Below are positions 12,667-58,499 of a stretch of 64,000 bases of DNA, one piece after another. The stretch is taken from positions 134,190 to 198,189 of the forward strand of contig UCKM01000005.1 of assembly GCA_900473175.1 (NCBI GenBank), written 5' to 3'. Position numbers and translations under genes: made by a program. The notes under the pieces were generated by a model. The model ran no database searches and was not told where the DNA came from. It saw only the letters and a program-made list of their open reading frames with translations. The number at the start of each line of letters is the position of its first letter. Position 1 is the first letter of the stretch. This DNA is from Hyphomicrobiales bacterium (lineage in GTDB: Bacteria; Pseudomonadota; Alphaproteobacteria; Rhizobiales; Rhizobiaceae).

Positions 12667-12696
12667 CTTGGGGGTGGGAAATTTAGCCACCCCAAG
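12667..12696. repeat. Inverted repeat between the SIR2 and AlpA-like genes
   Basis: CTTGGGGGTGG at 12667-12677 pairs with CCACCCCAAG at 12687-12696, with one bulged G and an A/T-rich loop. It lies in the 273-bp gap between two divergent genes and could be an operator, a 5' UTR hairpin of the AlpA-like gene, or a remnant at the edge of the inserted defence cargo. Nothing else was recognised in the gap. Confidence 0.4.
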
Positions 12697-12791
12697 TTCC
12701 CCATCCCTCCCGCCGACGGTTCTCCGCCACCGTGGTCGTTGTCAGCCGCTGATCGCCAGCGGCCCCCAGCAACCTCACGGAGGCCCGCCCC

Positions 12792-13073: not shown

Positions 13074-13091
13074 TCGGGGCCGGCCCCTTTC

Positions 13092-41700: not shown

Positions 41701-42958
41701 TGTCGTCGAGCAAGGCCATAGCCTGATCAGCCGGCCAGATGTCGAATATCTGCCGCGGAACAGTGATCGCGGCTTTGATGCTGACGAGTTGCCCATCTTC
41801 GGTCAGCAGCATCGATCGGCCATCGATCGCCGCATCAAACGCCAGTTCGACGATCGCACCACACGATCCTTCAAGCGTGGACGCCTCACGATCAACATCA
41901 GGCAACAAGCCATAGGCATCCGAGCGATCCCGCGGGCTGGCCTTGGTCTGCTCCAGCCACTCAATCATCGCACTGGCGGCGAGTTCGCCGGCCCGGTTCA
42001 ACAGCCAGCGATTGGTCGGCGAGGTCTCCGGATCCTTGATCTTGAGACGCGCCGGGTCCTGGATGAAGGGGGCGTTGCAGGCGAAAGGTAGCGCAGTTTC
42101 CACGCCGGTCGGCAGCACGACATAGAGCCGGCCCTTGGCGCCGAGCACAATCTCCACCCGGCAGGGCGGGAAATCACCGCTATCCTCGGCCCCCAACATC
42201 CGCTCGTTGCGGATCTCGTCGAGCGCCTCGGCAGGAAAGGCTTCCTCGTCCGACCGCACGAGGAGGAAGGGATCGTTCGCCTTCTCGTCCAAAGCCATCC
42301 ATTCGCTCTCGGCGATGGGGCCAGGTCCGAGACTCTGCCAATGCACCTCGCTGTCGCCGATCAGAAGGCGACGGATTTTCTTGAAGAACAGCAGCGACAC
42401 CGGGCTCTTCAGCCACTCGTCGAGGTTCTTCTCGACTTCGCGGCGTAGCAGCGGGCCTGCAATTGCCACCTCGACGCGCGTGGTTCCCGACGTCAGGGAA
42501 CGACTATCAATCCAGTGCGGCTGCGTGAACCGCGCGCGCTCGAAGGCGACAGCCAGCGTCGGCGTGAACAGCTCGACCCGATCGCCCAAGCTGAATGTGC
42601 TCTTAAAGCCGATCCCTCGGAAGCCGATCGTGTGCAGCGCGCGCTTGTTGGAGTAGCCGAAGCGGCAGATCGATGCAAAGTGGGCCTCGATGAAGTCCTC
42701 GCCATTGTGCTCGAACACGAAGCGGTCGTTCTCGATCGATACCCGCGCCTCGCTAGCACCGGCGTCGTCAGCATTCTGGAGCAGCTCAGACAGAATATGG
42801 CGTGGGCTCTGCACCTGCTTGAAGAGCTGATGCCACGGCCCTGCAAGCTCCGGGTCCGCCTCAAGCTGGTCCCAGCGTTTGGTGGCGCGTTCCTGGATGG
42901 GCTGGAAATAGCCAGGAGGATCGGCGAGGATCGCTTCGATCTGGCGGCCAGCGCTCAT
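38729..42958 (-). CDS. Sacsin/Hsp90-like GHKL ATPase, very large (defence)
   Basis: A 1409-aa protein. The N-terminal GHKL ATPase domain is clear: ELLQNADDAGASEARVSI (58-75, Mg-binding Asn62), FEHNGEDF (82-89) and the lid/ATP motif TIGFRGIGFKS (110-120), as in sacsin N-terminal repeats and Hsp90. The next 1100 residues are mostly helical with no motif I know. Near the C-terminus an acidic, Pro-rich linker (about 1210-1270) precedes a conserved-looking 110-residue domain (YKADGEDRFFHADGSWIGRG and on). Sacsin-like ATPases occur in several defence loci as putative sensors or clamps. Overlaps its upstream neighbour by 4 bases (ATGA). Confidence 0.78.
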   Translation of the reverse strand: MSAGRQIEAILADPPGYFQPIQERATKRWDQLEADPELAGPWHQLFKQVQSPRHILSELLQNADDAGASEARVSIENDRFVFEHNGEDFIEAHFASICRFGYSNKRALHTIGFRGIGFKSTFSLGDRVELFTPTLAVAFERARFTQPHWIDSRSLTSGTTRVEVAIAGPLLRREVEKNLDEWLKSPVSLLFFKKIRRLLIGDSEVHWQSLGPGPIAESEWMALDEKANDPFLLVRSDEEAFPAEALDEIRNERMLGAEDSGDFPPCRVEIVLGAKGRLYVVLPTGVETALPFACNAPFIQDPARLKIKDPETSPTNRWLLNRAGELAASAMIEWLEQTKASPRDRSDAYGLLPDVDREASTLEGSCGAIVELAFDAAIDGRSMLLTEDGQLVSIKAAITVPRQIFDIWPADQAMALLDDKSRSALCQHVSAKNRTKLVHWGLVEEFSKTDLLERLRSNHLPRPATWRHLLNLWAYIAPEVTGWQCHDADALRIVPVQGKDVLYGASEIVRLGEKKLLQSEEDWEFLAGHLIVLNQNWTRFLAEQRRDKGDGESRNDTVEAAFAVLEEIGLDGTSDVNAVIERVAADYFTSGQPKLAECIQIAQIAAKLGVTIGDAFRYACADRTLRSIGKGVLFDENGALEELLPESVRKTQLLHGDYVASFKSCTREDWLRWVASGRSGLQTMAPLVQKRQSLYGRPQLTSEAQARGARSALYYPYVTSQFVIEDWDFPSDYWRHWEGLSKTDAGIWAKIVGKILDQRDTYWSRGVGARLSQVATTGSTRSVTSERLLTDWLLKLRAKPCLPDTRNMIQLPADLVRRTPETEALIDVEPFVHGLLDRETTRPLLDLLGVRSTPSGPGRLLDRLRALAKSDKAPAHEVEKWYRRLDQMLDGCSTADAQNIKNAFKTEKLILAHDGTWATSGGVFLAGDEEDVPGAAVMRTSVLDLSLWHRIGVADRPSADLALQWLDTLASGKALSADDARRVRTLLVRYPTRIWEECGHWVNLVGEWAPVETLAYGLSMQTLFRWSHLHEWVKRKTADFQRLSGETVQAPPFSVLPALSELVEERFNQPSLLDGMDNRRAWLTAFGTQLGRIELADAAETERVRTLADAIAATSWVQSPKLEVIPYLDGVPAGTPRFTDILWLDHKLFVIPLSKAKLAKRVPEEIGRSLSADIRAALAYAFERSPEDIREYLEENFTLGPELIVALPIAEIQPAAEPGDDEDVDQVAEDAHDDAEPVDADDLHPAEDDEPANQPEPASPAGEPDRELIETEVATKHRTVQKPPRPSVMARFALAQGYKADGEDRFFHADGSWIGRGNGTRFPWERRSAGGEILRHYYPKDHCLEHEPLQLEADVWGLLDQKPDVYSFILNNPEGDPVEMTGVRLRALRDDGELTIHPATYRLVYDLNE

Positions 42959-43443
42959 AGCGGCAACTCCAGCGTCGAAGGCGTGGCGACCATTTCGGGT
43001 CCGCGCGGCGGGGCTGTCTTACGCCAGCCGCCCTTTACGGTCTGGATAGCAGAGATCGGCAAACGTCGCCCGGCCGGCAGTTCGTGCAGATCGCAAACGT
43101 GCCAGAACACCGCCCAGTGGCCCTGATTGTCGGACGTATATTGGCCCGTCGTCGGCGGGCGATGCATCATTCCCTTTGAATGCTTACCGTTTCCGCTTTC
43201 CTCGCAGCCCACATACCAACCCAGCCAGGACACGACAAAACTGAGCTTGGCCGGCACGTCCTCGCGCGATGGATAGATCAAGACCGGCATGCGAACGCCG
43301 CCGCGCATTTCATCGACCTTGCGAAACAGCTCCCACTTCCGCGAGCCAAAGGCGACGAACCCGGCCTTGTGCGCGATGTCTTCGCCGGACTGAAGATGCT
43401 CCAGCGGCACCGGAGCGAGAATGGCAAAATCCTTCATCTCCAT
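42955..43443 (-). CDS. Small protein of unknown function in the defence operon
   Basis: A 162-aa protein. The ATG at 43443 (MEMKDFAILAPVPLEHL) overlaps the upstream stop as TGATG; the open frame upstream of it lies inside the neighbouring gene. It is rich in predicted strands with aromatic patches (FVAFGSRKWELF, PVLIYPS, VSWLGWYVG, HWAVFWHVCDLHEL). This loosely recalls PUA/EVE-like barrels that read modified bases, but no family motif is firm. No catalytic triad or metal site is obvious. Its stop overlaps the next gene by 4 bases, so it is surely made together with the large ATPase. Confidence 0.65.
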   Translation of the reverse strand: MEMKDFAILAPVPLEHLQSGEDIAHKAGFVAFGSRKWELFRKVDEMRGGVRMPVLIYPSREDVPAKLSFVVSWLGWYVGCEESGNGKHSKGMMHRPPTTGQYTSDNQGHWAVFWHVCDLHELPAGRRLPISAIQTVKGGWRKTAPPRGPEMVATPSTLELPL

Positions 43444-44423
43444 CACGCGCCCCTCCCTTGCGATCCGCACCGCATGAGACTGACGCGATAGCGATAGGCT
43501 GCAATTTCCTCGACCACGACGCGGTCCCCCGCTCGGGCGCAATACAATCGATAGAAAGCGCCGATCCAGCCACGGGCGCGGAAAAACTTCTTCTGGCCGT
43601 CGAGGTCGGTCTGGACCGGGTCCGTGCCGCCCCACTCGATCGTTAGATCGCGCTTCGCCCGCGTCGCCTTGTTTGACCCGCCAATGGCGTCGGCCGGGAA
43701 GCGGTCGAAGAAAGAACGGAGGTAGATGTGGTTGTTCGCGATGTTTCCGTCGGTGATCTCCACCTCGCCGATCACGCGCCCGGTCGTCGTCTGCAAGGTT
43801 GTCATGCCCCGTGACGCCGGAGGTCGCACGGTCTGGGCGGTCGCGGTTGATGGCATCGTCTTCACCGGATCGATTACGTCCGGCTTGGCGTCATCCCACT
43901 CAATGTCGACATGCAGCTTGCGACCGCGCTGGGAGACATCGACCTTCACCGTATCGGCGCTGCCGAACCGATCCTGCCGCGAAGCGCCAACCAAAGGCAT
44001 CGCCACTTCCGGCTCGCCCATCGCGCCCCCGGCTCCGAGCTGGCTCGCGATACCATCGACGGCCGCATCGTCCAGTTCGACCCAGGTCACGGCGCCGCTC
44101 TTGTGCCGGTAAGCAACCGGTCGGTCGAGGCGGCGCACATCGGCCAGCTTCCAGGGCGTATTCCATTTCGCGACTTCGCCCGAACGGATCATATGCTCCG
44201 GAATACGGTGATGTTCGAACGTGGCGATCATCTCTTCTGGCGATAGCAGCGCGCCGGCCTCGATCAGTCTTGCCACGCCATAGACCGCCCCCGTGCCTTT
44301 GCGGATCAGTCCGAACCAACCGCGATGAGAAGCGCCGGTCGAGCGCATTTCCCAGTCCTTGGTCCCGCCAAGGATATAGCCAATCCAGGGATCGGCGATG
44401 ATCAGACCCTTGGTGATCCTCAT
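43443..44423 (-). CDS. ASCH-domain protein with possible B3-like C-terminal domain (defence)
   Basis: A 326-aa protein. Residues 1-60 fit an ASCH (PUA-like) domain: GLIIADPWIGYILGGTKDWE, where the TKDWEMR segment carries the typical K-x-x-E-x-R, then GLIRKGTGAVYGVARL. A middle segment is variable. The last 90 residues (NHIYLRSFFDRFPADAIGG, KKFFRARGWIGAFYRLYCAR, GDRVVVEEI) have the order of a B3/EcoRII-N-like DNA-binding barrel; that part is tentative. ASCH proteins bind nucleic acids, and some recognise modified bases. In an operon with a methyltransferase it could read methylation or phage base modification. Stop and start overlap those of its neighbours. Confidence 0.6.
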   Translation of the reverse strand: MRITKGLIIADPWIGYILGGTKDWEMRSTGASHRGWFGLIRKGTGAVYGVARLIEAGALLSPEEMIATFEHHRIPEHMIRSGEVAKWNTPWKLADVRRLDRPVAYRHKSGAVTWVELDDAAVDGIASQLGAGGAMGEPEVAMPLVGASRQDRFGSADTVKVDVSQRGRKLHVDIEWDDAKPDVIDPVKTMPSTATAQTVRPPASRGMTTLQTTTGRVIGEVEITDGNIANNHIYLRSFFDRFPADAIGGSNKATRAKRDLTIEWGGTDPVQTDLDGQKKFFRARGWIGAFYRLYCARAGDRVVVEEIAAYRYRVSLMRCGSQGRGA

Positions 44424-47400
44424 CGCGGCGCCTCCGCGCGCTCGAGCAGGCGCGGCAGATGAAATTGAATTGCCGTCTCGAGAAAGGACGGCTCGCGCTC
44501 GACAAGAGGGCCACGCACATAGCGCGGCTCATGGGCGAAACCGCTGGCGACAGAGACGATCGCCAGAATGAACTTCTCCGGCTCGTGCAGCGAGGTGATG
44601 ACCTCCTGCCGTGTGATCATCACGCTGTCGGCACCGTCGATGCGCCCCTTGACCTCGATGAAGCGTAGGTGCCCCGACTTCGGATCGTGCGAGGCGATGT
44701 CGTAGCCGACCTTCTGGGCCGATACGTCGACCGGCGCGTTCCCCAGTGCACGCTCGGCCGCCATGACGGCCTCCATCGCGGCAAGCTCGATCACTCTGCG
44801 TGCAGCGGGGTCTTCCGCAAAATGGTTCGGGACGCTTGGCGATTGACGCTCTTCGAGCAGGCCGCGCGGGATGACAACCATGCCACCACGGACACGCGGT
44901 GGCTGCGATGAGATGAAGCGCTCGCGCTCAAGCTGGTCCATTCGGCGCTTCTGCCGTTCGGCAAGGTCTTCGGCGCGGCGCTGGGCATTCTGCCAGTTCA
45001 CCCGCGTCTTCTTGCCAGCCCGCTCCTCTTCCTTCAGCTCGAAGGCGCGCGAGTCCCAGTAGTTGATCTCCTTCTTGAGCCGCGCGCGAACTTCCTGCTC
45101 GACCTTTTCGATCTCGGGCAGGCGCCGCGCCTTGACCTCGGCGACATGACCCTGGGCAAGCTCGACTGTAGCGAACCGAATGGCTGCTTTTTCCAGTTCT
45201 GAGGTGAGCCAGCTCTCGTCCAGGAGGTCGCGCACGCTGGCAACCTCCTCCGTCGTCGCGGGCCGGAGATTCAAGTGCGGCGCAATGCCTGCATTGACGG
45301 TGTTACCAGTCCTGTCGAGGGCCGCGAACTGGAGCCGTTGCGATATTACGTGCGGCTTACCGGCGCTGGTAACACGACCGTCCTGGACAGTGTGCTCCAG
45401 TAGGAAGATCGCCGACAGCGCGTCGCCGGCATCAGTGTCATCCACCAGGATCGCACCCTGCCGCATGATCTGCTCGTACTGCTCGCGGATCATGCTGATC
45501 ACGGCCTCGAGCAGCGGATGGCCAGGGCAGACGAAGGCTGCGACGGGCTGCTGGTTGATCTTGTCCTTCTCGAAGCAGATCCGCTCATACTGCGTCTGAA
45601 TCGGCGCACCGGTCCCGATCTGACGATCCCGCTCGCGAATACGCACCGGGACGTGTGTGATCTCCCAGCGTCCTTCCTCGCGGCGCTTGATCCGGCCACC
45701 CAGATGCTGAAACGCCTCGACAAAGAAGCTCTGGATGTGGTGCGGCTGAAGGCGCTGCGCCTCGGCGCGCTCCATTTCAAGCCGCAATTCCTCGACCCTG
45801 GCCTCGGGCATGGTGTCGTTGGTCAACGCGCGGCGCCGCAGCAGTTCGAGCAGGTTCGCCTGGTCGACCGCGCCATCGACCTGCTGGAAGAGACGCGCCT
45901 TGACCTCTTCCCTCTCGCCATACTGTATCGCCTCGAACAGCAGATCCTTGAGCGCCACGCCGTCGAAGAGTTCGCCGAGCACGTCATAGACACGACCGCC
46001 CAACGCCTCGCGCGCTGCCTCCAGCTTTTCAAGAAGCCGGGCATAAACCTCGCCCTCGCGAGTATCGGCAGCGACAAGATTCCACAGATGGCAAACCTCA
46101 GTCTGACCAATGCGGTGGATGCGGCCGAACCGCTGTTCGATCTTGTTCGGGTTCCACGGCAGGTCGTAGTTGACCATGAGGTGGCCACGCTGAAGGTTCA
46201 CGCCTTCACCGGCCGCATCATTGGCGATGAGGACAAGCATGTCCTTGTCCTGCATGAAGCGCTCGACGACCTTGCGTCGCTCCTCGCGTGACACGCCGCC
46301 GTGGATCACCTCTACGGCCTCAGGATTGCCAAGCCGCGACCGCACCTTGTCGAGCAGGTAGTGGAGCGTGTCCTTGGGTTCGGTAAAGATGATCAGCTTG
46401 CGTCGATTGCCGGCAGCATCGATCATGAGATCGTCGTCGAGAATACGATTGAGCTGAGTCCACTTCGTATCGACGCCGGAGCGAAGTACACCGAGCGCCA
46501 TCGCCTCCAGGCCCTTCAGCGTCTCGACTTCGAGGGCGAGTTGTTCGACCGTCTCGGCCGTCGTCGCGCCCGTCGAGATCAGATCCTCAAGCTCGTCGAT
46601 CTCATCCTGACCATATTCCTCGATGTTGCGCAGCATGTCGGCGTTGACTACCGATTCACCCATACCGGCCCGACGGCCTTTCGCGGCAAGGCGTGCCTCA
46701 CCCAGCTCATTCTCCAGCCGCTCGCGGCGCCGCTTGAGTGACTGGTAGATGGCGGCCGGGGACGAGGCGAGGCGCCGCTGGAGAATCTGCAAGGCGAAGC
46801 CGACATTGTTGCGCTTCTTCCCGTCACCCTCGGCGAACCGCTGCACGCGGTTCATCTCGGTGCGCACATATTCAGTGACGGCGGTGTAGAGCGCAGCCTC
46901 CCCTTCCGAGAGCTGATATTTGACGGTGCGCGCGCGCCGCTCGGGGAAGAGTGGCCGGCCATCGAATCTCAGCAGTTCCTCTTTCGTCAGCCGCCGCATC
47001 ATGTCTGCGGTGTCGGCGTAGTGGACGCCATCGCGGAACCGGCCTTCGAACCGATCTCCATCGAGCAGCGCCATGAAAAGCTGGAAATCCTCTTCCTTGC
47101 CATTGTGCGGCGTCGCCGACATCAAAAGCAGGTGCCGACATACTTGGCCGAGCTTCTGACCGACCTGATAGCGGCGGGTATATTTGACCTCGCCACCGAA
47201 ATAGGTCGCTGACATGCGATGAGCTTCGTCGCAGATGATCAGGTCCCATTCGCGGGCACTCATGAGCTTCTCTTGAAGCTCCTCATTGCGCGCGAGCACA
47301 TCGAGACGGACGATCAGCCGATCCCGGTCGCTGAACGGATTGCCCGACCGCGAGTTCTCGATCATGTCGCGAGAGAGGATATCGAATTCGAGATTGAACT

Positions 47401-47923
47401 TCTGGCCGAGTTCGTCCTGCCATTGCTCGACCAGACTACCCGGCGCGACGACGAGACAACGCTCAAGATCGCTACGCGCGATCAGCTCCTTCATCAGCAG
47501 GCCGGCCATGATCGTCTTGCCCGCGCCGGGATCATCGGCAAGGAGGAAGCGCAGCGGCTGGCGCGGCAGCATTTCGCCATAGACAGCAGAAATCTGGTGC
47601 GGCAGCGGCTCAACTAGACTCGTGTGAACCGCCAGATACGGATCGAAATAATGCGCCAGCTTGATACGGTTGGCTTCCGTCACCAGACGCAGCAGCGCGC
47701 CATCGGCGTCGAACGACCAGGGCCGCCCGTTCTGCTCGATCTCAAGACGGTGTTCGTCATCGCGATAAAGAACAGCCTCGGCCACCGCGCCATTGTGATC
47801 GCGGAAAACGACATTGATCGCCTGGTCGCCGATCCAGTCCACCGAGATGACATGCACGGGCTGCGCGGAGGCCACCCCCCGCACAGACGCGCCGTTCTTT
47901 ACATCTTCAAGCCGTGCCCCCAT
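44420..47923 (-). CDS. SNF2-type helicase with C-terminal DUF3883/PD-(D/E)XK domain (DrmD-like)
   Basis: A 1167-aa protein. Motif I DDPGAGKT (130-137) after LPHQISAVYGEML, motif II DEAH (232-235), motif III LLMSATPHNGKEED, and in the second RecA domain LVLIANDAAGEGVNLQRGHL and FGRIHRIGQ, which are SNF2/DrmD hallmarks. A long coiled-coil-like stretch follows. The last 125 residues carry KVGYDIASHD (Asp1075) and RFIEVKG (Glu1090-x-Lys1092), a PD-(D/E)XK nuclease signature within a DUF3883-like domain. It could translocate along DNA and cut it, with specificity set by methylation. In DISARM the DrmD helicase lies beside an adenine methylase, which is the closest known parallel; DUF1998 partners are lacking here. 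Confidence 0.82.
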   Translation of the reverse strand: MGARLEDVKNGASVRGVASAQPVHVISVDWIGDQAINVVFRDHNGAVAEAVLYRDDEHRLEIEQNGRPWSFDADGALLRLVTEANRIKLAHYFDPYLAVHTSLVEPLPHQISAVYGEMLPRQPLRFLLADDPGAGKTIMAGLLMKELIARSDLERCLVVAPGSLVEQWQDELGQKFNLEFDILSRDMIENSRSGNPFSDRDRLIVRLDVLARNEELQEKLMSAREWDLIICDEAHRMSATYFGGEVKYTRRYQVGQKLGQVCRHLLLMSATPHNGKEEDFQLFMALLDGDRFEGRFRDGVHYADTADMMRRLTKEELLRFDGRPLFPERRARTVKYQLSEGEAALYTAVTEYVRTEMNRVQRFAEGDGKKRNNVGFALQILQRRLASSPAAIYQSLKRRRERLENELGEARLAAKGRRAGMGESVVNADMLRNIEEYGQDEIDELEDLISTGATTAETVEQLALEVETLKGLEAMALGVLRSGVDTKWTQLNRILDDDLMIDAAGNRRKLIIFTEPKDTLHYLLDKVRSRLGNPEAVEVIHGGVSREERRKVVERFMQDKDMLVLIANDAAGEGVNLQRGHLMVNYDLPWNPNKIEQRFGRIHRIGQTEVCHLWNLVAADTREGEVYARLLEKLEAAREALGGRVYDVLGELFDGVALKDLLFEAIQYGEREEVKARLFQQVDGAVDQANLLELLRRRALTNDTMPEARVEELRLEMERAEAQRLQPHHIQSFFVEAFQHLGGRIKRREEGRWEITHVPVRIRERDRQIGTGAPIQTQYERICFEKDKINQQPVAAFVCPGHPLLEAVISMIREQYEQIMRQGAILVDDTDAGDALSAIFLLEHTVQDGRVTSAGKPHVISQRLQFAALDRTGNTVNAGIAPHLNLRPATTEEVASVRDLLDESWLTSELEKAAIRFATVELAQGHVAEVKARRLPEIEKVEQEVRARLKKEINYWDSRAFELKEEERAGKKTRVNWQNAQRRAEDLAERQKRRMDQLERERFISSQPPRVRGGMVVIPRGLLEERQSPSVPNHFAEDPAARRVIELAAMEAVMAAERALGNAPVDVSAQKVGYDIASHDPKSGHLRFIEVKGRIDGADSVMITRQEVITSLHEPEKFILAIVSVASGFAHEPRYVRGPLVEREPSFLETAIQFHLPRLLERAEAPR

Positions 47924-47945: not shown

Positions 47946-48830
47946 TCATAGATGAAGCCCCGATTTCTGTAGCGCGGCCTCCGTTTCCTTACGGTTTATC
48001 GTAACGATATGCTGCGTATGGGCGCTCTGCTTTGAGGCATCGCCAAGAAGCCCGAGGCGCTTCAAGACATAGAAGAGCATTGCGTAGCGTACCGAAAGCA
48101 CGCTCTTGCCATGGTCCAGCCCATAATCCTTGGCGACGACTTTCTGTTGGCTCGCCGTAAGAGCCGGATGCGGCCCGACGATAACGTCGAAATAGTTATT
48201 CCAGAGCCAGTCCCGTTCGCCAGTCTCGCCAGGCTCCCCATTCGCGCCGACGTCGAGGATGCGCGGCAGCAGGAAATCCTTGAACTTGTATTCCAAGTGG
48301 CAATAGGCCCGCGCGTGCCAGCGGAAACCATCGTAACCGAAGGCGTGCGGCGTAATCCGTCGCCAGGTAGGTTCGGGCCGCAACTTGTTCATCGACTGGT
48401 AGAAGACGTCGATGGATACGCCCTCGCGGCAGGCATCAAGAATCTTCCGCAGAACCTTAATGTCGATGTCCCGCCTGGGGGTCAGCGCCACATCAGCGCT
48501 GGGAAGCGCCGCAATCCACGAGTCGTTCGCGGACACAGCCCCCTCGGCTACCGAGCGAAGCTGCGACAGATAGATGTACGGGTCCGGCTCCAGAAACCGC
48601 AGCACGAATTTTTCGGCAGCGACGTAGCGCTTGGCGCGGGGGTCATACTCCACGTTTCCGGGCGCACGCTCCTGATAGAGCGTCAAATCCTTGGAAGCCT
48701 GCGGCACCGACACACCAAACGCCTCGACAAGATCAGCCCGGTTGATCGAGCCCTCCCAAAACAGCCGAAACTCGATGAATTCGAGTCGGCGCCCCACCCC
48801 CCACTTCAGCGCCGTCGCGGCTTCTGCCAT
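47946..48830 (-). CDS. WYL-domain transcriptional regulator, BrxR/CapW-like
   Basis: A 294-aa protein. N-terminal winged helix (FRLFWEGSINRADLVEAFGV, then SVPQASKDLTLYQE), then a WYL domain (RRITPHAFGYDGFRWHARAY) and a C-terminal WCX-like extension. BrxR/CapW proteins are dimeric repressors that sit at the head of BREX, CBASS and other defence operons and bind inverted repeats in their own promoter; ligand binding may relieve repression. Here an exact 13-bp inverted repeat (48845-48857 and 48895-48907) lies just upstream, between this operon and the divergent plus-strand operon. It is first of seven genes in its operon. Confidence 0.85.
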   Translation of the reverse strand: MAEAATALKWGVGRRLEFIEFRLFWEGSINRADLVEAFGVSVPQASKDLTLYQERAPGNVEYDPRAKRYVAAEKFVLRFLEPDPYIYLSQLRSVAEGAVSANDSWIAALPSADVALTPRRDIDIKVLRKILDACREGVSIDVFYQSMNKLRPEPTWRRITPHAFGYDGFRWHARAYCHLEYKFKDFLLPRILDVGANGEPGETGERDWLWNNYFDVIVGPHPALTASQQKVVAKDYGLDHGKSVLSVRYAMLFYVLKRLGLLGDASKQSAHTQHIVTINRKETEAALQKSGLHL

Positions 48831-48844
48831 GTACCCTGCCTCGC

Positions 48845-48907
48845 CTAATGAGGATAAAAACTATATGGACAACTCGCCATAGTCCGTGTAATTATTATCC
48901 TCATTAG
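48845..48907. promoter_or_regulatory. Bidirectional control region with perfect 13-bp inverted repeat
   Basis: CTAATGAGGATAA (48845-48857) and its exact complement TTATCCTCATTAG (48895-48907) lie 50 bp apart, centre to centre, in the 199-bp gap between divergent operons. The DNA between them is A/T-rich. On the minus strand TATAGT (5 of 6 to -10) occurs inside it; on the plus strand TGGACA, 17 bp, TAATTA is a weak promoter-like pair. The arrangement suits a BrxR-type dimer controlling both arms. The rest of the gap up to 49016 holds only the AAGGAGGG ribosome-binding site of the plus operon. Confidence 0.7.
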
Positions 48908-49029
48908 GGGGTTCCGTCAATGGTCGATCTGTCACAGTCAGCGAGGCAAAGAATGCCGCGGCACGGCTTTTTGGATCGGATCGATGGCGCGGCGCACAGC
49001 CCCAAGCAGAACCCGGAAGGAGGGCGGCC

Positions 49030-51687
49030 ATGACCATCGCACATCGATCCACCTTGGTCGTTCACGGCCGCCTCGCCATGCGGGAGAGCCGCCTTGCGGC
49101 GGGCCGTGCCGGCCAGCACGGCCTCCAGATCATGTCCTTCGAGCAAGCCGCCGTCCGGCTGGCCGGCGGTTTTGTTCGCCCGATCGATGAAGAGAGTCTG
49201 CGCGCCGCCATCCAGGCGGCGCTGTCCGCCACGCCGATGGGCGAACTGGAGAGCATCAAGACGCTGCCCGGCATGATCGATGCGGCGGCCGACACGCTGC
49301 ACAAGGCCTGGCGCGCGGGCATAGACCTTGCCGCACGCGCGGCCGATGACCATCCCCGTCTCGCCGCCATCGCACGCCTGGAGGCGGCCGTCCTCGACCG
49401 GCTTCCGGCCGGCATGCTGCGGCCTCTCGACATCGCCGCCGCCGCCACTGAGCGTCTCGCCCATGCGCCAGCGGTCCTTGGTCCGATGGAGATCGTCGGG
49501 CTCACCGAACTCTCGCCTTGCTGGCGGCCGCTACTTCAGGCGCTCACCACCCATGTCCCCGTGCAGTGGACGGCCGGCCCGAGGAGCGTTCCCGCGTGGC
49601 TGGACGGCACGGACGTCGCGATCTCGCGCGCACCGGCGCAAGCGCCGGAGATCAACGCCGCCAGCGCGGCGACGGCCTATCACGAAGCCATCGAGGCGAT
49701 GCGCTGGGCGCGAAGCCTGCTCGCGTCGGGCGTCACCCCGTCGGAGATCGCCATCGCGACCGCCTCGCCCGCCGACTATGACGATCACTTCCTGGCTCTG
49801 CGCGCCGACGCCAACATCGACCTGCACTTCGTCCACGGCGTTCGCACCGTCACCACCCGCGACGGTCAGGCCGCCGCGGCGCTGGCCGACATCGTGGTCC
49901 GCGGCTTGTCGCAATCGCGGTTGCGGCGGCTCGCAACGCTCTGCCGGGACTGTGGACATTTCGAGTCGCTGCCCGAAGGCTGGCTGCGTGTCCTGCCGAC
50001 CGATGCGCCGCTCTCGACGCCGGGCGCCTGGAACCGCCTGCTGGCCCGGTTGGCGGCGGACGACTGGCCCGATGGCGCCGACCATACCCCGGCTTTGCGC
50101 GTGGCGATCGAGACGCTGTCGAAAGGGCCAGAGGCCGCCGGCGAGATAGGAGAAGCCTTCCTCAAGGGCCGAGCCCTCGCGATCTGGCGCAAAGCGCTGC
50201 TCGCCGGCCCCGGCGCCTCGGTCGATGCGACGCTCGAGACCCTGAAGCAGGACGACGGACTGGAAGCCTGCGTCTGCGTCGCCTGGATGCCGGCCAGCGC
50301 GCTGGCGGCGTCGCCCCGCCGCTTCGTGCGGCTGCTTGGCCTCAATTCGTCCCGCTGGCCGCGCGGGATCGCCGAAGATCGGCTGATCCCGGACCATATC
50401 ATCGCGACCCCGGTGCTCGACCCGTTGCCAGTCAATCTCGCCGACCGGCGCGACTTCGAGACGATCCTCGCCACGACGGGCGATACCGTTGTCCTCTCGC
50501 GCGCGCGGCGTGACAGCGACGGACGTCTCTTGGGACGCAGCCCTCTGCTCGCCGGACATGGTGACGAGACCTATCTGCGCCGCAACGCGACGCCAGCGCA
50601 CGCCTTCAGCGAAACCGACCGCCTGATGGCCCGGCCCCAGGAATTCGCCGCCGATCCGCAAGCCGTCAGCGCGCAAGGCTGCTGGCGCGACTGGCGACAG
50701 GTTGAGATCACGTCCCACGATGGCCTCGTGCGGGCGGACCATCCGCTCGTCCTCGCCATCCTCGGCCGGACCCAGTCCGCCAGCTCGCTGCGCCGACTGT
50801 TGCGCAATCCGCTCAGCTTCGTGTGGATCTATGCTTTTGGATGGCGTGAACCGCAGAGCAGCGCCGAACCGCTCGTGCTCGACGCGCTCGGGATCGGCGA
50901 TCTTGTCCACCTGGTTCTCGACCAAGCCCTGCGCGACCTCGAAACCGGTGTCGGTCTTGCGGCCGCCGACGCGCCGACCATCGAAGCCGCAGTGGCGCGG
51001 GCCGCGCAAGTCATCGCCGCCGACTGGGAGAGCGAGCGCCCGGTTCCGCCGGCGGTCATCTGGGGGCGGACCCTCGACGACGCCCGCGTGCTGGCCAGCC
51101 GAGCTCTGTCCTATGGCGATGGCCTTCTGCCAGGCGCGCGTTCCTACGGCGAGGTTCCCTTCGGCGGCTCGCAGCCGAAATCCGACGCGCAGACGCCTTG
51201 GGATACGAGCACCCCAGTCACGATTCCCGACACTGGCTTCAACATCGCCGGCTATATCGACCGGCTCGACATCGCAGGAGACGGCAAACGCGCCCTCGTG
51301 CGCGACTATAAGACCGGACGCCCGCCGCGCGGCGACATCCGACTGAACGGCGGACGCGAGCTTCAGCGCTGCCTCTATGCGTTCGCGGTCAAGGCGCTGC
51401 TCGGCGATGACGTCGCGATCAGCGCCTCGCTGCTCTATCCACGCGATCCCGTCGATCTTCAACTCGACGAACCCGAAGCGGTGCTCGTGGAGATCACCGG
51501 CTATCTGCGCGCGGCAAGGGCGAGTCTCGCCAGCGGCGCGGCCCTGCCTGGGCCGGATACCGGAGGCGACTACGACGACCTCGCCTTCGCCCTGCCGGCC
51601 AACGCCAGCGCCACCTATTGCAAACGCAAGATGCCGGCCGCCACGGAGCGGCTCGGCGAAGTTACTCAGGTCTGGGAGGCGGAATGA
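49030..51687 (+). CDS. AddB/RecB-like PD-(D/E)XK nuclease (defence)
   Basis: An 885-aa protein. ATG at 49030 after AAGGAGGG. The body resembles the inactivated helicase-like region of AddB (RFVRLLGLNSSRWPRGIAED, TVVLSRARRDSDGR), without a Walker A motif. The C-terminal RecB-type nuclease is intact: FNIAGYIDRLDI, VRDYKTGRPP (Asp759-x-Lys761) and ELQRCLYAFAV (Gln779 to Tyr783). Only part of the Fe-S cysteine set is apparent (ATYCKRK). It should form a complex with the AddA-like protein encoded next, degrading or processing DNA ends. It heads the plus-strand defence operon under the shared control region. Context argues against the chromosomal housekeeping AddB. Confidence 0.82.
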   Translation: MTIAHRSTLVVHGRLAMRESRLAAGRAGQHGLQIMSFEQAAVRLAGGFVRPIDEESLRAAIQAALSATPMGELESIKTLPGMIDAAADTLHKAWRAGIDLAARAADDHPRLAAIARLEAAVLDRLPAGMLRPLDIAAAATERLAHAPAVLGPMEIVGLTELSPCWRPLLQALTTHVPVQWTAGPRSVPAWLDGTDVAISRAPAQAPEINAASAATAYHEAIEAMRWARSLLASGVTPSEIAIATASPADYDDHFLALRADANIDLHFVHGVRTVTTRDGQAAAALADIVVRGLSQSRLRRLATLCRDCGHFESLPEGWLRVLPTDAPLSTPGAWNRLLARLAADDWPDGADHTPALRVAIETLSKGPEAAGEIGEAFLKGRALAIWRKALLAGPGASVDATLETLKQDDGLEACVCVAWMPASALAASPRRFVRLLGLNSSRWPRGIAEDRLIPDHIIATPVLDPLPVNLADRRDFETILATTGDTVVLSRARRDSDGRLLGRSPLLAGHGDETYLRRNATPAHAFSETDRLMARPQEFAADPQAVSAQGCWRDWRQVEITSHDGLVRADHPLVLAILGRTQSASSLRRLLRNPLSFVWIYAFGWREPQSSAEPLVLDALGIGDLVHLVLDQALRDLETGVGLAAADAPTIEAAVARAAQVIAADWESERPVPPAVIWGRTLDDARVLASRALSYGDGLLPGARSYGEVPFGGSQPKSDAQTPWDTSTPVTIPDTGFNIAGYIDRLDIAGDGKRALVRDYKTGRPPRGDIRLNGGRELQRCLYAFAVKALLGDDVAISASLLYPRDPVDLQLDEPEAVLVEITGYLRAARASLASGAALPGPDTGGDYDDLAFALPANASATYCKRKMPAATERLGEVTQVWEAE

Positions 51688-54600
51688 TGAGCAACGTGTC
51701 CAAAGTGCTGAAGGACGACGGCGCGCGCCGCCATGCGATCAGCCTTCATGATCGCTCCATCCTCGTCGAGGCGGGCGCGGGTTCGGGCAAGACCGCCGTC
51801 ATGGCTGGGCGCATCGCCGCCATGCTCGCCGAAGGCGTCGCGCCGCGTTCCATCGCCGCCGTCACCTTCACCGAACTGGCCTCAAGTGAATTGCTCTCGC
51901 GTGTCCGCGAATTCGTCGCCGATCTCTCGGCCGGCGTGATCGCGACCGAGCTGCGCGTGGCGCTGCCCGATGGCCTGTCTGAGGTCCATCGCCGCAATCT
52001 CACCGCCGCCAGCGCCGAGATCGACGAAATCACCTGCTCGACCATCCACGGGTTTTGCCAGCGGCTGATCAAGCCCTATCCGGCAGAGGCCGACATCGAC
52101 CCCGGCGCCGGCGTGATGGATCGCAACCAGGCCGATCTGACCTTCCTCGAGATTGTCGATGGTTGGTTGCGCGAGCGGCTGTCCGGGGGCCAAGGCGGCA
52201 TCCTGGCCGAGATGGTGCTGCATAGCCCCGGCGAGACGGTGGCGCTGATCCACAAGATCGCGGAAAACCTGCGCCGCCGCCCCACGCTGGCGGCCCCGAC
52301 CGTCTCTCCACTTGACGGCCACCTGACAGCGTTCCGGCAGGCTGCGGCGGATTTTGTCGGCTTCATGGATGGCACGGCGGTGGCTGAGCCGGAAACGGTG
52401 ACGATCGTCGAGCGGCTGGCGGAAATGGCCGCAGACCTGGCGACGGCTCCCGATCCGGCGACGCCCGCGGGCCTCGTCCAGCTCCTGACCTCGCGGCCCC
52501 ACCCAGACCTTTGCACCAAATCCGGAGCCTTCGCTTCCTATCGCAAGAAGGGAAAATGGGCCGCCTCCGCCAAGCAGGCCGGTCTTTCCAAGGTCGACGG
52601 CGATCGGCTGAACGACGCGGCCGAGATCCACTACGCCGCCTGCCGCGATGCCTGGACCGCACTTGTGCAGGCCGCCGCCGGCCATGCCCTCGCAGCGCTG
52701 ATCGACGAGGCGCATCCCATCCTGCAACGCTATCGCGACCACAAGCGCGCCAGCGCCCAGCTCGATTTCGACGATCTGATTTTCGCCGCGCGCGCCTTGC
52801 TGCGCGACCACGATGCCGTCCGCCAGGCGCTGGGAGAGCGTTTCGCCCATGTCCTCGTTGATGAGTTCCAGGACACAGATCCCCTGCAAACCGAGATTTT
52901 CTGGCGTCTGTGCGGCGAGCCGGTCGATGGCGATGACGACTGGACGCGGTTCCAAATCCGGCCGGGCGCGCTCTTCCTGGTCGGCGACCCCAAACAGGCG
53001 ATCTATCGCTTCCGAGGCGCCGATGTCGGCGCCTATGTCCAGGCGCGTGACGCCTTCCGCGCCCAGGACGCCGACAGCCTCCTGTCGATCTCGACCAATT
53101 TCCGCTCCTGCGCCTCGATCCTCACCTTCGTCAACGAGCGTTTCGAGGCCGTGCTCTCGGCCGATGGACAGCCGGGGTTCACCGCGCTCGACCCGTTCCA
53201 CGATGACCGGGGCGGCGTTTGCGTAGCCGCCCTCGACATCGCGGTGGCTGACGAAACCGGCAAGGCCAGCGCCGAACAGCAACGCGACGCTGAAGCCGAC
53301 GCCATCGCCGAGCTTTGCGCCCGGCTGATTGAAAGCCACCCCATCATCGACCGACGCAGCGGCACGGAGCGCCCTTGCCAACCGGGCGACATCGCCTTGC
53401 TGGCGCCGACCGGCGCGGAACTGTGGCGCTACGAGGAAGCTCTGGAGCGGCGCGGCATTCCCGTGGCGACCCAGGCCGGCAAGGGGCTGTTCCGCCGCCA
53501 GGAAGTCCAGGACCTGATCGCTCTGACCCGCGTCCTGGCCGATCGCCGCGACACGCTCGCGCTCGGCGCGTTGCTGCGCGGGCCTCTGGTCGGCCTGTCC
53601 GAAGAAGAGCTGCTCGACATCATCTGGGGGCTTCCCCGCTCGGAAGATCAGCCTGACCGGATTCCACGCCTGGATCTCGGCATCGACCCTGCCGTCATCA
53701 CGCACCCGCTCGCGCGCGAGGTCATCGAACGGCTGCAATCGCTCTCCCGGCGCGGCAACAGCACGACCCCGCACGAATTGCTTTCACAGGCGGTGGACGT
53801 GATGCGCGTCCGTCCGCTTCTCCTCGAACGGCATCGCGGCCAGGCCGAGCGCGCGCTCGCCAACGTCGATCTCTATCTCAGCTTGTCGACCGGCTACGCC
53901 GTGCGCGGTCTGCGCGCCTTTGCCGAGGCCATGGCGACGGCGTGGTCCGACGAGGCCCGCGCCGTCGAGGGGCGCCCCGATGCACAGGAGGAAGCGGTCG
54001 CGCTCTTCACCATGCACGCGGCCAAGGGGCTGGAATGGCCGATCGTCATTCCGGTCAACACCATGACCGGCGTGATGGCGCCCGAAAGCGCCGTCCTCGA
54101 TCGCCAGACCGAGACCTTCTATTGCCCGGTCCTGGGCATCCCGCCCGAAGGCTATGACGACGCGCGCCAGGCGGAAAAGGAAGAGCTGGACCGCGAACGC
54201 ATCCGGCTCTGGTATGTCGCGGCCACCCGCGCCCGCGAGCTTCTTGTCCTCCCCCGTCTCAACACCACGCCGTCGAAATCGGCATGGATCGGTCTCGTCG
54301 ATCTATCGCTCGCCGAACTACCCGGTCTGGATGTCTCGCATCTGCCCGCCGGTCTCACGGCAGCGGGCACGGGGGTGGACAACGCCCAGACACGCGCGAC
54401 CTTCGCCGCCGAAGCTGAAATCATCGCCGCGGCGCAGACGCGGCTGACCTGGCTTGCACCCAGCCGCGACGAAAACGCCGTCGGGGCGGTGCTCCGGAAA
54501 GAAGAGGCGTCCCTCTGGACCGGCTCGGCTGACGACCAGCCCCCCGAACTGGAAATCGCCGCCCCGGTGCAGGGAGGCCGGGAGCGCGGGCTCATCCTCC

Positions 54601-55079
54601 ACAAGCTCATCGAAGAGGTGCTGACCGGGGAAACCCCGGAAGCCGAGGCGGCGCTGATCGAACGTGCGGCCGGCCTGATCCGCTCGCTTGGCCGGTCGCC
54701 GCTCGCCGATCCGGCGAAAGGGCTGTCGGCCGAAGAACTGGCGGCCTGTGTCACACGCACTCTGGCCCTGCCTGACATCGCGGCCTTGCGACCCGGCCTC
54801 CTGGCCGAATTTCCCGTCTATGCCGCCCAGGCGAATGACGGCGTGGAAACCGCGACGGCCGGGATCGCCGACGCTCTGACAGTTGGAGAAGATGGCCGGC
54901 CAGTCGTGGTGGTCGACTGGAAGAGCGACGTGAACCCCGACGCTCAGACTCTCGATCATTATCATGCGCAGGTGCGCGCCTATCTGAACATGACCGGCGC
55001 CGAGCGCGGACTGATCGTGCTGATGACGAAGGGAACGGTGATTGCCGTCGCGCCTTCGCCGCAGACCGTGTCGGCCTGA
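51684..55079 (+). CDS. AddA-like UvrD helicase-nuclease (defence)
   Basis: A 1131-aa protein. Two adjacent ATGs, at 51684 (overlapping the upstream stop) and 51687 (better spaced from GGAGG); either may be used. SF1A helicase motifs: GAGSGKT (31-37), VDEFQDTDPLQ (392-402), GDPKQAIYRFRGAD (434-447), TNFRS, TMHAAKGLEWPIV and YVAATRARE. C-terminal PD-(D/E)XK nuclease: GLILHKLIEE, VVVVDWKSD (Asp1078, Lys1080) and HYHAQVRAYL. Both helicase and nuclease look active. With the previous gene it makes a full AddAB-type machine, here as part of a defence operon rather than chromosomal recombination. Confidence 0.88.
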   Translation: MMSNVSKVLKDDGARRHAISLHDRSILVEAGAGSGKTAVMAGRIAAMLAEGVAPRSIAAVTFTELASSELLSRVREFVADLSAGVIATELRVALPDGLSEVHRRNLTAASAEIDEITCSTIHGFCQRLIKPYPAEADIDPGAGVMDRNQADLTFLEIVDGWLRERLSGGQGGILAEMVLHSPGETVALIHKIAENLRRRPTLAAPTVSPLDGHLTAFRQAAADFVGFMDGTAVAEPETVTIVERLAEMAADLATAPDPATPAGLVQLLTSRPHPDLCTKSGAFASYRKKGKWAASAKQAGLSKVDGDRLNDAAEIHYAACRDAWTALVQAAAGHALAALIDEAHPILQRYRDHKRASAQLDFDDLIFAARALLRDHDAVRQALGERFAHVLVDEFQDTDPLQTEIFWRLCGEPVDGDDDWTRFQIRPGALFLVGDPKQAIYRFRGADVGAYVQARDAFRAQDADSLLSISTNFRSCASILTFVNERFEAVLSADGQPGFTALDPFHDDRGGVCVAALDIAVADETGKASAEQQRDAEADAIAELCARLIESHPIIDRRSGTERPCQPGDIALLAPTGAELWRYEEALERRGIPVATQAGKGLFRRQEVQDLIALTRVLADRRDTLALGALLRGPLVGLSEEELLDIIWGLPRSEDQPDRIPRLDLGIDPAVITHPLAREVIERLQSLSRRGNSTTPHELLSQAVDVMRVRPLLLERHRGQAERALANVDLYLSLSTGYAVRGLRAFAEAMATAWSDEARAVEGRPDAQEEAVALFTMHAAKGLEWPIVIPVNTMTGVMAPESAVLDRQTETFYCPVLGIPPEGYDDARQAEKEELDRERIRLWYVAATRARELLVLPRLNTTPSKSAWIGLVDLSLAELPGLDVSHLPAGLTAAGTGVDNAQTRATFAAEAEIIAAAQTRLTWLAPSRDENAVGAVLRKEEASLWTGSADDQPPELEIAAPVQGGRERGLILHKLIEEVLTGETPEAEAALIERAAGLIRSLGRSPLADPAKGLSAEELAACVTRTLALPDIAALRPGLLAEFPVYAAQANDGVETATAGIADALTVGEDGRPVVVVDWKSDVNPDAQTLDHYHAQVRAYLNMTGAERGLIVLMTKGTVIAVAPSPQTVSA

Positions 55080-55093
55080 CGGAGGGCGACCCG

Positions 55094-58000
55094 ATGGCCT
55101 CCCGCACCCGCTCCAACGGCCCCAACCAGGACGACCTCTTCAATCCCGAGGTCGAACTGCTCTTGCCGGCCCGGCTTGTCATCGACGGCAAGGTGCTGGG
55201 GAGCCCGGTGCGTCAGTTGGCCGTTCCTGCGCGCCGGGTACGTTGCCGGCTTCGCCCCTTCGCCATCCGCCGCGTCAATGGTTACGAGACAACCCTGGAA
55301 TCCGGCGAAATTCTGAAGGTCATCAGCGCAAAGACGGCCACGCCGTTGGAGGCCGATCTCATTCTGCTTGTGCCTGGGGCAATGGAGCCGGAACGGATCG
55401 CCGAAGCGCTTGAACTGGGTGCAGGCCGGTGGATGAATGCGCTGCCGATCGGCATTGACACGCTGGATCGTTCCGCGCGCGTCGAGCGGCTTAAGGCCGT
55501 CTCCGCCTCCTGGATCGACGCCATTCATTTGCGAGAAGGCCGAGCCGCGGCCGATGGTGTGCCGGCGCAGCCTGGCTTGCGGCGGCCCCAGATCGGGGCG
55601 CTTCATGCCGCGCTTGCCCATGCGACGCGATCGACGGACCCGGCCACCATCGTCATGCCGACGGGCACGGGCAAGACCGAGACAATGCTGGCGCTCAATG
55701 CCAACCGGCGGTTCGAGCGCCTGATGGTGGTGGTCCCTACCGACGCTCTGCGCGAGCAGATCGCGAGCAAATTCGAGACCTTCGGCGTCCTGAAACAGCA
55801 GAAATGTCTCGATGAAACCGCAGCCTTCCCTTTGGTCATACGGCTCTCGCACATTCCGGTCAGCGAGGCCGAGGTCGATGAAATCTTCGACAGCGCCAAT
55901 GTCGTCGTCACCACGATGCAGATCGCTGGCCGCGCCGAGGCGCCGGTACAGGAACGGATGGCGGTCCGTGCCTCCGCACTCTTTATCGATGAGGCGCATC
56001 ACATCGGGGCACGGACCTGGAAGTCCTTTCGCGGGCTCTTCGTTGAGCACGAGCCGCCCATTCCGGTGATCCAGTTCACCGCCACCCCGTTTCGTGAGGA
56101 TGGAGGCCGCGTCGATGGGGAGTTCATCTACACCTACCCCCTGAAGAAGGCGCAGCAGGAAGGCTATTTCAAGCCGATCCGCTTCGAGGCCGTATTCGGG
56201 CTTGATCAACCCGACGCTGATCAAGCGATCATAGACAAGCTCGGCGAAGTGCTTGCCTCGGACCTGGACGCTGGCCTCAATCATCTGGCGATGGCCCGTT
56301 GCAGCACCATCGAACGCGCCAAGCACCTGCATAGTCTCTATGCGGCGGCCTATCCGGACTATCGGCCTGTCATCGTCCACAGCCAGCAATCGCTGAAAGA
56401 GCGGCGTGAAAATCTGGCAGCGCTACGCCGCTTTGAGAGCCGGATCATCGTATGTGTCGACATGCTCGGCGAGGGGTTCGACCTGCCCGAGCTGAAGATC
56501 GCTGCATTGCACGATCATCACAAAAGCGTGGCGGTGACGATCCAGTTCGTCGGCCGCTTCACCCGCCAGGATCCGACCTTGGGCGATGCGACGGTGATCG
56601 CCAATACCGGCATCGACGATGTCGATCGCGCGCTGGCCAAGCTCTACGCCGAGGACGCCGACTGGAACGCGCTGGTGGAGGCGCTCAGTTCGGCCAAGAT
56701 CGAACGCCAGGTTCGCCGCGCCGAGATGTTCAAAGGCTTTTCGGGGGATCTAAGCGACATTCCGCTCCAGACCCTCGAGCCGAAAATGAACGCGGTCCTC
56801 TACCGGACGTCCTGTGACGCTTGGGATCCGTTCCGCGCGGAGGAACTCTACAATCCCGGCATCTATCTCGGCATGAAAATGAACCCGCATCAACGGGTCG
56901 CGATCTTCGTGACTCGGGCGGAGGAACAGGCGCGCTGGACCTCGGCGCAGCAGGCGGTGAACGTCACCTGGGATCTGCACATGCTCCACTGGGATCAGGC
57001 AAGTGGCCTGCTCTACATCAGCAGTTCCGCCAAGGGCCCGTTTGACCGCCTGGCAAAGGCGGTTTGCGGCGATACGACGCGCCGCGTGGAAGGCGAGGAA
57101 GTGTTCCGCAGCCTCCACGGGTTCAAACGGCTCATCCTGCGCAACCTTGGCCTCACCCACCATCAGGGGCGCGGCGTCCGCTATTCAATGTATATGGGCG
57201 TGGACGTCGCCGACGGCCTCGACAGCGCGAAATCCCAGTCGAGGATCAAGAACAACATCTTCGCCACCGGCTTCCTCGACGGTGTGCCTTCCTCACGCGG
57301 ATGCTCGGCCAAGGGCAAGTTCTGGTCCAGCGCCAAAGTCCATGACCTGACCGACTGGGTGGATTGGTGCCACGACGTCGGCCGCACGGTGAACGATCCC
57401 AGCATCACGACCGACGGCGTCTTCAAGAGCGCGATGCGCCCCCATCAGATCAACCAGCGCCCGGCCGTTCCGCCCGTGGCGATCCATTGGCCTGAATCTC
57501 TGATCACCCAGTTCGAGGAGCGGATCGAGATTTCGTTCGGAGATGAGCCCGTCACCTTCACGGAATGCGATATCGAGTTGCTTGATAACGCTCGTTCCGG
57601 ACCGCTGCGATTCGCCGTGCGAAGCGATGAGCACGCGGCCGAGTTCGAGATCGTCTTCAGCGACGGGCATGCCCGCTACCCCCAGCGCGCCGGCCCCAAG
57701 GCGACGATCAAGATCGGCAGCAAGGTGCAGACGCTTTCGGAATCCTTCGGCGAGGATTCACCTCAGATCGACTTCGGCGATGGCTCGTTGCTCATCTACA
57801 GTCACCTCTACACCCTGCCCGAAGGCGAAACGATCGAGCCGTACCCGTCCGACAAGATCGAGGCCTGGGATTGGTCGAAGGCCAATATCCGCGTCGAGTC
57901 GCAAGGCACGAGTAAGCGCGCAGACTCCGTCCAGCGTCTCGTCATCGACACACTGTTGGCCGACCCCGATCCCTATGATGTGATCTTCGACGATGATGGC

Positions 58001-58435: not shown

Positions 58436-58499
58436 TGCCGTAGGGCATCGGCAATATTCTTGAGTTGTGAGTTTTTACCACGCCGTGGGGGCAGGCTTC

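Follow-up and report, generated by a model that had tools for sequence, protein, structure and literature searches.

CapW, the regulator of CBASS known from S. maltophilia, E. coli, P. aeruginosa and R. leguminosarum (the last as a complex with single-stranded DNA (ssDNA), 9c5g), represses its divergent promoter in both directions, as described in the accessible text of PMC9122588. Both CapW and BrxR repress until ssDNA is bound, according to the accessible part of PMC13373217 and the title of PDB entry 9c5g. The available descriptions portray the sites of this family as short, tightly spaced palindromes, and those of CapW as 19-24 bp long and located at the -10 element. BrxR from the BREX systems of Acinetobacter and E. 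fergusonii has its site in its own promoter, with half-sites 5 nt apart, and the 25-bp site of the Acinetobacter protein forms the tip of a stem-loop predicted to span ~70 bp. In the accessible text of a survey of BrxR homologs, the 200 bp upstream were searched for repeats with gaps <8 bp; these were found for 193 of 347 homologs, thus leaving 154 without. Wide nested palindromes like the present one would escape such a gap filter. A further WYL regulator, DriD of Caulobacter, binds a bidirectional promoter with its site over the -35 element and activates the divergent operon (accessible text of PMC12340889). Among bidirectional promoters, an 18-bp layout with reciprocal -7/-11 pairs is reported as the commonest arrangement (available text of PMC10268837 and PMC12825309).

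Here, we describe a locus in a window of 64,000 nucleotides (the whole stretch of DNA that was analysed). Like the CapW loci, it combines a regulator of full-length homology and with the same DNA-binding residues, a palindrome over promoter elements and a divergent gene pair. It differs from them in the length of the palindrome (65 bp), in a predicted shared -10 element, and in its operons, which are Hma and an AddAB-like nuclease-helicase module instead of CBASS. With BrxR it shares the family, a site in the regulator's own promoter and the nested look of the site, whereas BrxR is more distant in sequence and its 5-nt spacing is absent from the centre of the palindrome. The published shared -10 promoters resemble it in the reciprocal pairs and in the 18 bp between starts, which are predicted here; the present promoter differs in lying under a predicted defence repressor and in being repeated in several genera. 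HmaA, HmaB and HmaC are matched here as in the Hma or DUF499-centred BREX-related systems (PMC8565338, PMC12839542), and the accessible text of these papers mentions no regulator at a promoter common with a second operon. Likewise, our literature search, mostly of open-access main texts, returned no WYL regulator at a promoter common to Hma and a second system. Each of the three components, CapW/BrxR control, bidirectional promoters and Hma, has been described before; what is new, as far as the literature was searched, is a nested palindrome over a shared -10 element that joins exchangeable defence operons.

Two defence operons diverge from a common intergenic region

The preliminary description had two arms diverging from the 199-bp gap, the minus arm starting with the WYL regulator, and this is the arrangement that we find:

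47946-48830, minus strand: CapW/BrxR-type WYL regulator of 294 aa, with whose gene the minus arm begins
44420-47923, minus strand: HmaA helicase (E 0, 1588 bits)
42955-43635 and 43443-44423, minus strand: two ORFs separating HmaA from the large ATPase
38729-42958, minus strand: large ATPase-like protein inside the Hma operon (PADLOC TmtA models; Pfam SACS just under the cut-off)
35941-38751, minus strand: HmaB methylase (DUF1156)
32631-35927, minus strand: HmaC, a DUF499 ATPase with Swt1-like HEPN
48920-49033, plus strand: possible leader ORF of 37 codons, its stop overlapping the next start (ATGA)
49030-51687, plus strand: PD-(D/E)XK nuclease encoded by the first large plus-arm gene (PF12705; TIGR03623 far below the cut-off)
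51618-55079, plus strand: UvrD/AddA-like helicase-nuclease (addA_alphas E 4.5e-91, below the cut-off)
55094-58435, plus strand: DEAD/ResIII helicase
58467-61519, plus strand: ZacA and ZacB genes

Helicase, methylase and ATPase of an Hma system are thus all matched. The pair of ORFs at 42955-43635 and 43443-44423 gave no Pfam or PADLOC match, and the second of them also no NCBIfam match; the plus-arm nuclease gave no PADLOC match and no PDB sequence match at E 0.01. The place of the leader ORF is occupied in other loci by a small protein of a different kind, ~47 aa long (MPKRSPNREVTSKKAASAASKVLRDP...), e.g. at 17729-17872 (minus strand) of locus L061, for which a Pfam search returned no match. 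The module of PD-(D/E)XK nuclease, AddA-like protein and DEAD helicase (49030-58435 of the window, plus strand) recurs in relatives both opposite Hma and opposite BREX.

The gap holds a nested palindrome of 65 bp

An exact 13-bp inverted repeat had been pointed out in the gap. Indeed, CTAATGAGGATAA is found at 48845-48857 (plus strand) and its exact complement at 48895-48907, 50 bp from start to start. The flanking C at 48844 and G at 48908 also match, which extends the repeat to 14 bp, and a larger palindrome encloses it:

48844-48857, plus strand: left exact arm of 14 bp (the 13-mer and one further pair), outer rim of the palindrome
48895-48908, minus strand: right exact arm of 14 bp
48844-48908, both strands: imperfect palindrome of 65 bp centred on 48876, with 27-nt arms that are 85% complementary and 11 nt between them

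The 27-nt arms, which pair without gaps, correspond to 48844-48870 and 48882-48908, and exact repeat and palindrome are concentric on position 48876. In the genome assembly (4.88 Mb, 45 contigs), the 13-mer occurs once forward and once reverse and nowhere else. We employed 1500 dinucleotide-preserving shuffles of the gap, in which exact inverted repeats reached 11 bp at most (three times) and never 12 bp, compared with 14 bp observed. Chance is thereby ruled out as the origin of the repeat. The preliminary description had called this DNA high in GC; the gap itself has 55% GC and is not strongly GC-rich. The repeat is real and probably functional, and represents a variant of a known regulatory kind.

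The regulator is a full-length relative of CapW and BrxR

The regulator had been called BrxR-like, and phmmer, profile and fold comparison all identify it as a full-length CapW/BrxR relative. Its closest match by phmmer is CapW of S. maltophilia (SmCapW; E 1e-60), followed by the CapW proteins of P. aeruginosa and R. leguminosarum and then by BrxR, and the profile comparison gave an E-value of 5.5e-89. WYL was the sole Pfam model found, and an NCBIfam search found no model. Its sequence aligns over nearly its full length to 7tb6, 9c5g, 7tb5, 7t8k and 7qfz, in agreement with the wHTH-WYL-WCX architecture. Fold matches of the structural model (mean pLDDT 80.8, pTM 0.54) by VIA-align had Z-scores of 14.4-20.9 and r.m.s.d. 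values of 19.5-23 Å, the best one with a Z-score of 20.9 and an r.m.s.d. of 19.8 Å over 276 aligned residues; values near 20 Å arise because the placement of the domains in the model is uncertain, as judged from the pTM. The regulator is 24-41% identical to its nearest solved relatives, CapW and BrxR, and 11-16% to DriD.

To compare the locus with its relatives, we assembled loci from 15 of 199 relatives' genomes (its own included), with 37 from viral contigs, from plasmids (685 matching records, of which 4 were taken) and from species genomes (the best 80 of 457). The comparison set comprises 92 loci with an identity of at least 55%, the window included and some being near-copies. It excludes rows below this identity as well as L001-L003 and L021, which are copies or fragments from the own genome. 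A locus of Niveispirillum cyanobacteriorum (L059) is 89% identical. According to the available description, mutation of R32, S42, Q45 or S47 of SmCapW abolishes DNA binding. The residues at these positions in the phmmer alignment, R31, S41, Q44 and S46, are identical in all 92 loci. For the ligand pocket of SmCapW (Y145, R183, F185 and R189), the same kind of alignment assigns Y144, F186 and R190, which match SmCapW and are invariant in 24 sequences. The fourth pocket position, 184, is a lysine instead of the arginine of SmCapW and nearly invariant in these sequences.

Two opposed predicted promoters appear to share one -10 element beneath the palindrome

A consensus scan of 401 bp returned two sigma-70-like promoters, with 0.1 expected. 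They are opposed, overlap the palindrome and have spacers of 18 bp each (TTGACG-18-AATAAT leftward; TGGACA-18-AATTAT with TGn rightward):

48915-48920, minus strand: -35 element (TTGACG) of the WYL/Hma promoter, just outside the palindrome
48891-48896, minus strand: -10 element (AATAAT) of the WYL/Hma promoter; predicted start at 48884
48866-48871, plus strand: -35 element (TGGACA) of the plus-arm promoter, within the operator-like core (see below)
48890-48895, plus strand: -10 element (AATTAT, preceded by TGn) of the plus-arm promoter; predicted start at 48902

The -11A and -7T of the two promoters coincide reciprocally on base pairs 48891 and 48895, so that the predicted starts lie 18 bp apart. 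The shared -10 class is characterised by mapped divergent starts 7-25 bp from each other. Thus, the expectation of two promoters under one site is borne out insofar as matches face both ways over the palindrome, but they appear to share a single -10 element.

Among the relatives, TTGAC occurs 34-48 bp before the centre in 87 of the 92 loci. Of 91 loci, 27 scored 18 or more out of 24 for the shared -10 layout and 34 scored 16 or more, while none of 90 control stretches reached 16, a control in which base composition is unmatched and to which many near-copies among the loci are compared. Scores of at least 18 were obtained for 25 of 50 loci with a PD-(D/E)XK, UvrD or DEAD arm and for 2 of 41 without; the layout is therefore not universal, as the other 25 loci with such an arm score lower. 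Of the 50 loci with the arm, 47 have TGGACA at the position of the plus-arm -35 element, compared with 5 of 42 without (six more have TTGACA), the latter including L064, where the upstream DNA is too short to show an arm. With kinship controlled on the starred branches of a quick tree (24 of 78 inner branches), the association between arm and TGGACA was not significant (median p 0.125, seven independent pairs), a mean of 4.5 of the seven pairs pointing the same way and 0.0 the opposite way. Kinship explains much of this association. Moreover, TGGACA belongs to both the palindrome and the promoter, and conservation of operator and of promoter is inseparable there.

The coverage of the plus-arm -35 element by the operator-like core recalls DriD, whose site covers a -35 element, and would suit a WYL protein that activates instead of repressing. 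We regard this as improbable: CapW and BrxR are much nearer to the regulator than DriD, the predicted minus start falls inside the core, and the promoters here match the consensus well, whereas those of DriD have non-optimal elements (accessible text of PMC12340889).

The interior of the palindrome is conserved, the exact repeat is not

Alignment of the relatives revealed an operator-like core:

48859-48893, minus strand: operator-like core conserved in relatives, in the sense of the WYL gene AA(C/T)TA(T/C)ACGGA - N13 - TCCATATAGTT

A site scan with fixed spacing gave scores of at least 30 in 73 of the 92 loci, with a matrix trained on the same rows; the remaining 19 score lower, some having altered spacing (L105, L107). 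We repeated the scan with a matrix derived from 28 close loci only; of the 64 held-out loci, 52 scored above all 40 of their own shuffles and 12 did not. No recognisable site was found in the promoter of L007. Both consensus sequences, written in the WYL sense from loci with scores of at least 30, extend beyond the core: TTGACGag.g.cc.TgATGgGaATAaTAAtTAcACGgAC.g....Gat.TGTCCATATAGTTTTTAT.CtCATt for 23 non-redundant loci with a nuclease-helicase arm, and Ttga..........t.ATg.GtATA..AAcTATACg.At......T..atGTCCATATAGTTT.TAtaCt.AT for 22 other loci. Conserved are thus the interior of the palindrome and a looser consensus of the arms, about ATGgGaATAa / TtATcCtCAt. The preliminary description had proposed conservation of the repeat in homologous loci as a check, and the answer is divided: the interior and the loose arm consensus are kept, the exact 13-mer is not. 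At offsets 19-31 from the centre, only the window has all 13 pairs among the 73 well-aligned loci, where 7 and 8 pairs are commonest; a conserved operator consisting of the exact 13-mer is thereby rejected. The perfect pairing of the 14-bp rim is a local feature, by which the outer and looser part of the site was completed. As in the CapW/BrxR class, the palindrome overlaps the promoter of the regulator's own operon.

Elsewhere in the genome, the pattern ACGGA-N12-GTCCATATAG had no second perfect match besides the present site, and with up to three mismatches we counted 34+51 matches versus 42+31 for a reversed control, i.e. no clear enrichment. Within the 64-kb window, the operator pattern occurs only at the present site.

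With respect to the regulator, the core scores better in forward orientation in 28 of 28 close loci and in 47 of 64 held-out loci. The other 17, among them L104, L022 and L111, score better reversed, and a uniform orientation everywhere is thus ruled out. Similar half-sites may explain these cases. In L104, the right half resembles the left half of the core of the window.

A promoter flanked by exact inverted repeats could also be an invertible segment, or the repeat could act as an RNA hairpin or terminator instead of an operator. The palindrome folds strongly as a single strand of 65 nt (-14.8 kcal/mol, z -6.7), and the 17 cores that score better reversed (L104, for example, 0.1 forward and 13.5 reversed) make an inverted core conceivable in some relatives, although drift between two similar half-sites explains them equally well. 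Against inversion stands the common orientation of all the close and most of the held-out loci. Each predicted transcript would hold at most one arm, an Rfam search of the palindrome gave no match at the gathering score, and the sole terminator-like site that we found lies at 48955-48967, outside the palindrome. We therefore consider these readings very improbable and retain that of an operator.

The palindrome may accommodate two regulator dimers

We asked which part of the site a single dimer might occupy, given an operator of 19-27 bp with the 5-nt spacing of BrxR. The centre of the palindrome misfits, and each half fits weakly. Tentatively, the 65 bp might instead be filled by two dimers on two mirror-oriented boxes ~33 bp apart (about three helical turns), each box combining one half-site of the core (inner) with one of the exact arms (outer). 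BrxR-shaped pseudo-dyads (10+5+10) of the right and left halves scored best at offsets +16 and -17 in the 23 nuclease-helicase loci (0.53 and 0.52; mean of all centres 0.25, s.d. 0.09) and at +17 and -17 in the 22 other loci (0.48 and 0.59; mean 0.26, s.d. 0.07), while the dyad at 0 reached 0.50 and 0.40, respectively. Such a box also exists at -45 in L025-L029, mutually similar loci of ~50% identity from viral contigs, with 8 of 10 matches in four of them and 7 in L027. However, 8 of 10 is unexceptional, as L049 has 9 at two places. Compared with column permutations, the maxima gave p-values of 0.03-0.07 in three of four cases, one left half reaching 0.0005. The motif TGnnnRTA-N5..7-TAYnnnCA was present in the right half of 15 of the 23 and 3 of the 22 loci, and in the left half of 2 and 0 of them, respectively. 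In the window itself, the best 25-bp dyad lies at +4.5 (7 of 10), +16 having only 5. The second gel-shift species of Acinetobacter BrxR, which also forms with randomised flanks, lends no support to a second box.

In L025-L029, the box is a single 25-bp BrxR-shaped pseudo-palindrome ~45 bp before the regulator (GATGCGTATAGTTTATATATCCATC in L025). A G and a T at offsets 6 and 7, considered as a general contact after R38 of BrxR, were dropped, as promoters like that of L088 have not retained these letters on the right side.

Pairing of the rim was completed recently

Between offsets 6 and 32, three letters of the window (-25 A, -23 G and +31 G) are absent from all four sisters, L063-L066, and each of them forms a pair that is impossible with any sister letter. 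The change at +31 accompanies a stretch before the gene that is one base shorter (46 instead of 47) and may be a one-base deletion. Quasipalindromes can template mutations by which one arm is copied from the other.

Such templated mutation might have made the arms exact, and their exactness would then be functionless. We consider this conceivable but somewhat doubtful. It would account for three private, pair-making changes set against four sisters, and is in line with the weak covariation at offsets 19-31, determined for 33 non-redundant loci of the 52 scoring at least 45 (cis 0.594 versus 0.562 permuted, p 0.011; 0.582 versus 0.554, p 0.031, minus the window). At offsets 22-31 the p-value was 0.046 (0.097 without the window), and offsets 6-18, where many positions are invariant, showed no clear excess (p 0.10). 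Selection for a tighter site, however, predicts identical changes, and the outer arms keep a shared consensus. Furthermore, long perfect runs of other sequence exist inside the palindromes of L107 (21 pairs), L124 and L136 (14 each) and L126 (13). In a palindrome test of single loci, a minority of rows reached p 0.016, the minimum with 60 shuffles, and most loci did not exceed their shuffles. The rim is so under some pull to pair, and in this genome pairing was recently completed by selection or by templated mutation.

A model for joint control of both operons

We consider it likely that the gap is a bidirectional promoter with a shared -10 element under a CapW/BrxR-type operator, through which both operons are repressed jointly and released by a ligand. 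As the shared -10 element lies under the palindrome, the putative repressor site covers the promoters of both the WYL-Hma and the AddAB-like nuclease-helicase operon. Repressor dimers on the palindrome would block RNA polymerase in both orientations, an assumption based on the CapW precedent of repression in both directions (PMC9122588, in its accessible text). WYL-Hma and nuclease-helicase-Zac operons would be held down together, and the repressor would limit itself. Binding of a ligand at the WYL domain, ssDNA in the studied CapW, would release the repressor and let both operons fire, as the accessible part of PMC13373217 states such release for CapW/BrxR. Polymerase would then load in one orientation at a time. 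That both arms are switched together, as first suggested for this locus, is the best reading given divergent arms, two-way promoters over the palindrome and a CapW/BrxR-type regulator. If true, one small cassette would put two unrelated defence systems under one DNA-damage or phage signal, and would explain why defence systems can swap without losing control.

Defence operons are exchanged on either side of the regulator

Across 91 labelled loci, the nuclease-helicase arm is paired with Hma in 36, with BREX in 8 and with something else in 4. A DUF2188-like gene, a label given by a short peptide pattern and verified with Pfam in one instance, is paired with Hma in 17, and 26 loci fall into other classes. 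On the best quick tree, a minimum of 22 changes is required for the outward label, compared with 10 for the downstream one.

The regulator genes of L004 and L089 are 90-100% identical per 60 nt from codon 48 onwards and 73-85% before it, and their upstream DNA is unrelated (alignment score -12 versus -11 shuffled, s.d. 4). L072 and L088 show a similar pattern (upstream score 1 versus -12 shuffled, s.d. 7), while L103 and L104 retain some upstream similarity (18 versus -4, s.d. 4). In the first two pairs, the junction of an apparent recombination lies within codons 1-48 of the regulator gene, and the outward arm seems to have been transferred together with the promoter and the initial codons. 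Nevertheless, the promoters of L004 and L089 both carry AA(C/T)TA(T/C)ACG and TAGTTT in the same columns, and L089 beats all 40 shuffles with the held-out matrix. A site kept under unrelated upstream DNA is the best comparative argument for the palindrome as the site of the regulator.

In a wider reading, which we think rather unlikely as a whole, the CapW-type repressor, the nested double palindrome and the shared -10 promoter would form an alphaproteobacterial defence 'socket'. Two dimers would sit on mirrored boxes, polymerase could run either way, and whole operons would be swapped on either side, those facing outward taking the promoter and the initial regulator codons with them. By sensing ssDNA, the repressor would command any pair of operons, and the AddAB-like arm could alter ssDNA and feed back.

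The outward arm is QatABCD in L104 (2625-7625), DUF2188 with a patatin in L113 (6675-7901), and an SbcD-like gene plus a large ATPase resembling LmuB in L132 (2895-7884). On the downstream side of the regulator, L129 has a 1950-aa protein with no Pfam or PADLOC match (9123-14975), L142 has proteins of 651 and 553 aa with no PADLOC match (10443-14288), and L138 has a pPIWI-RE/DinG-type protein (9916-13584).
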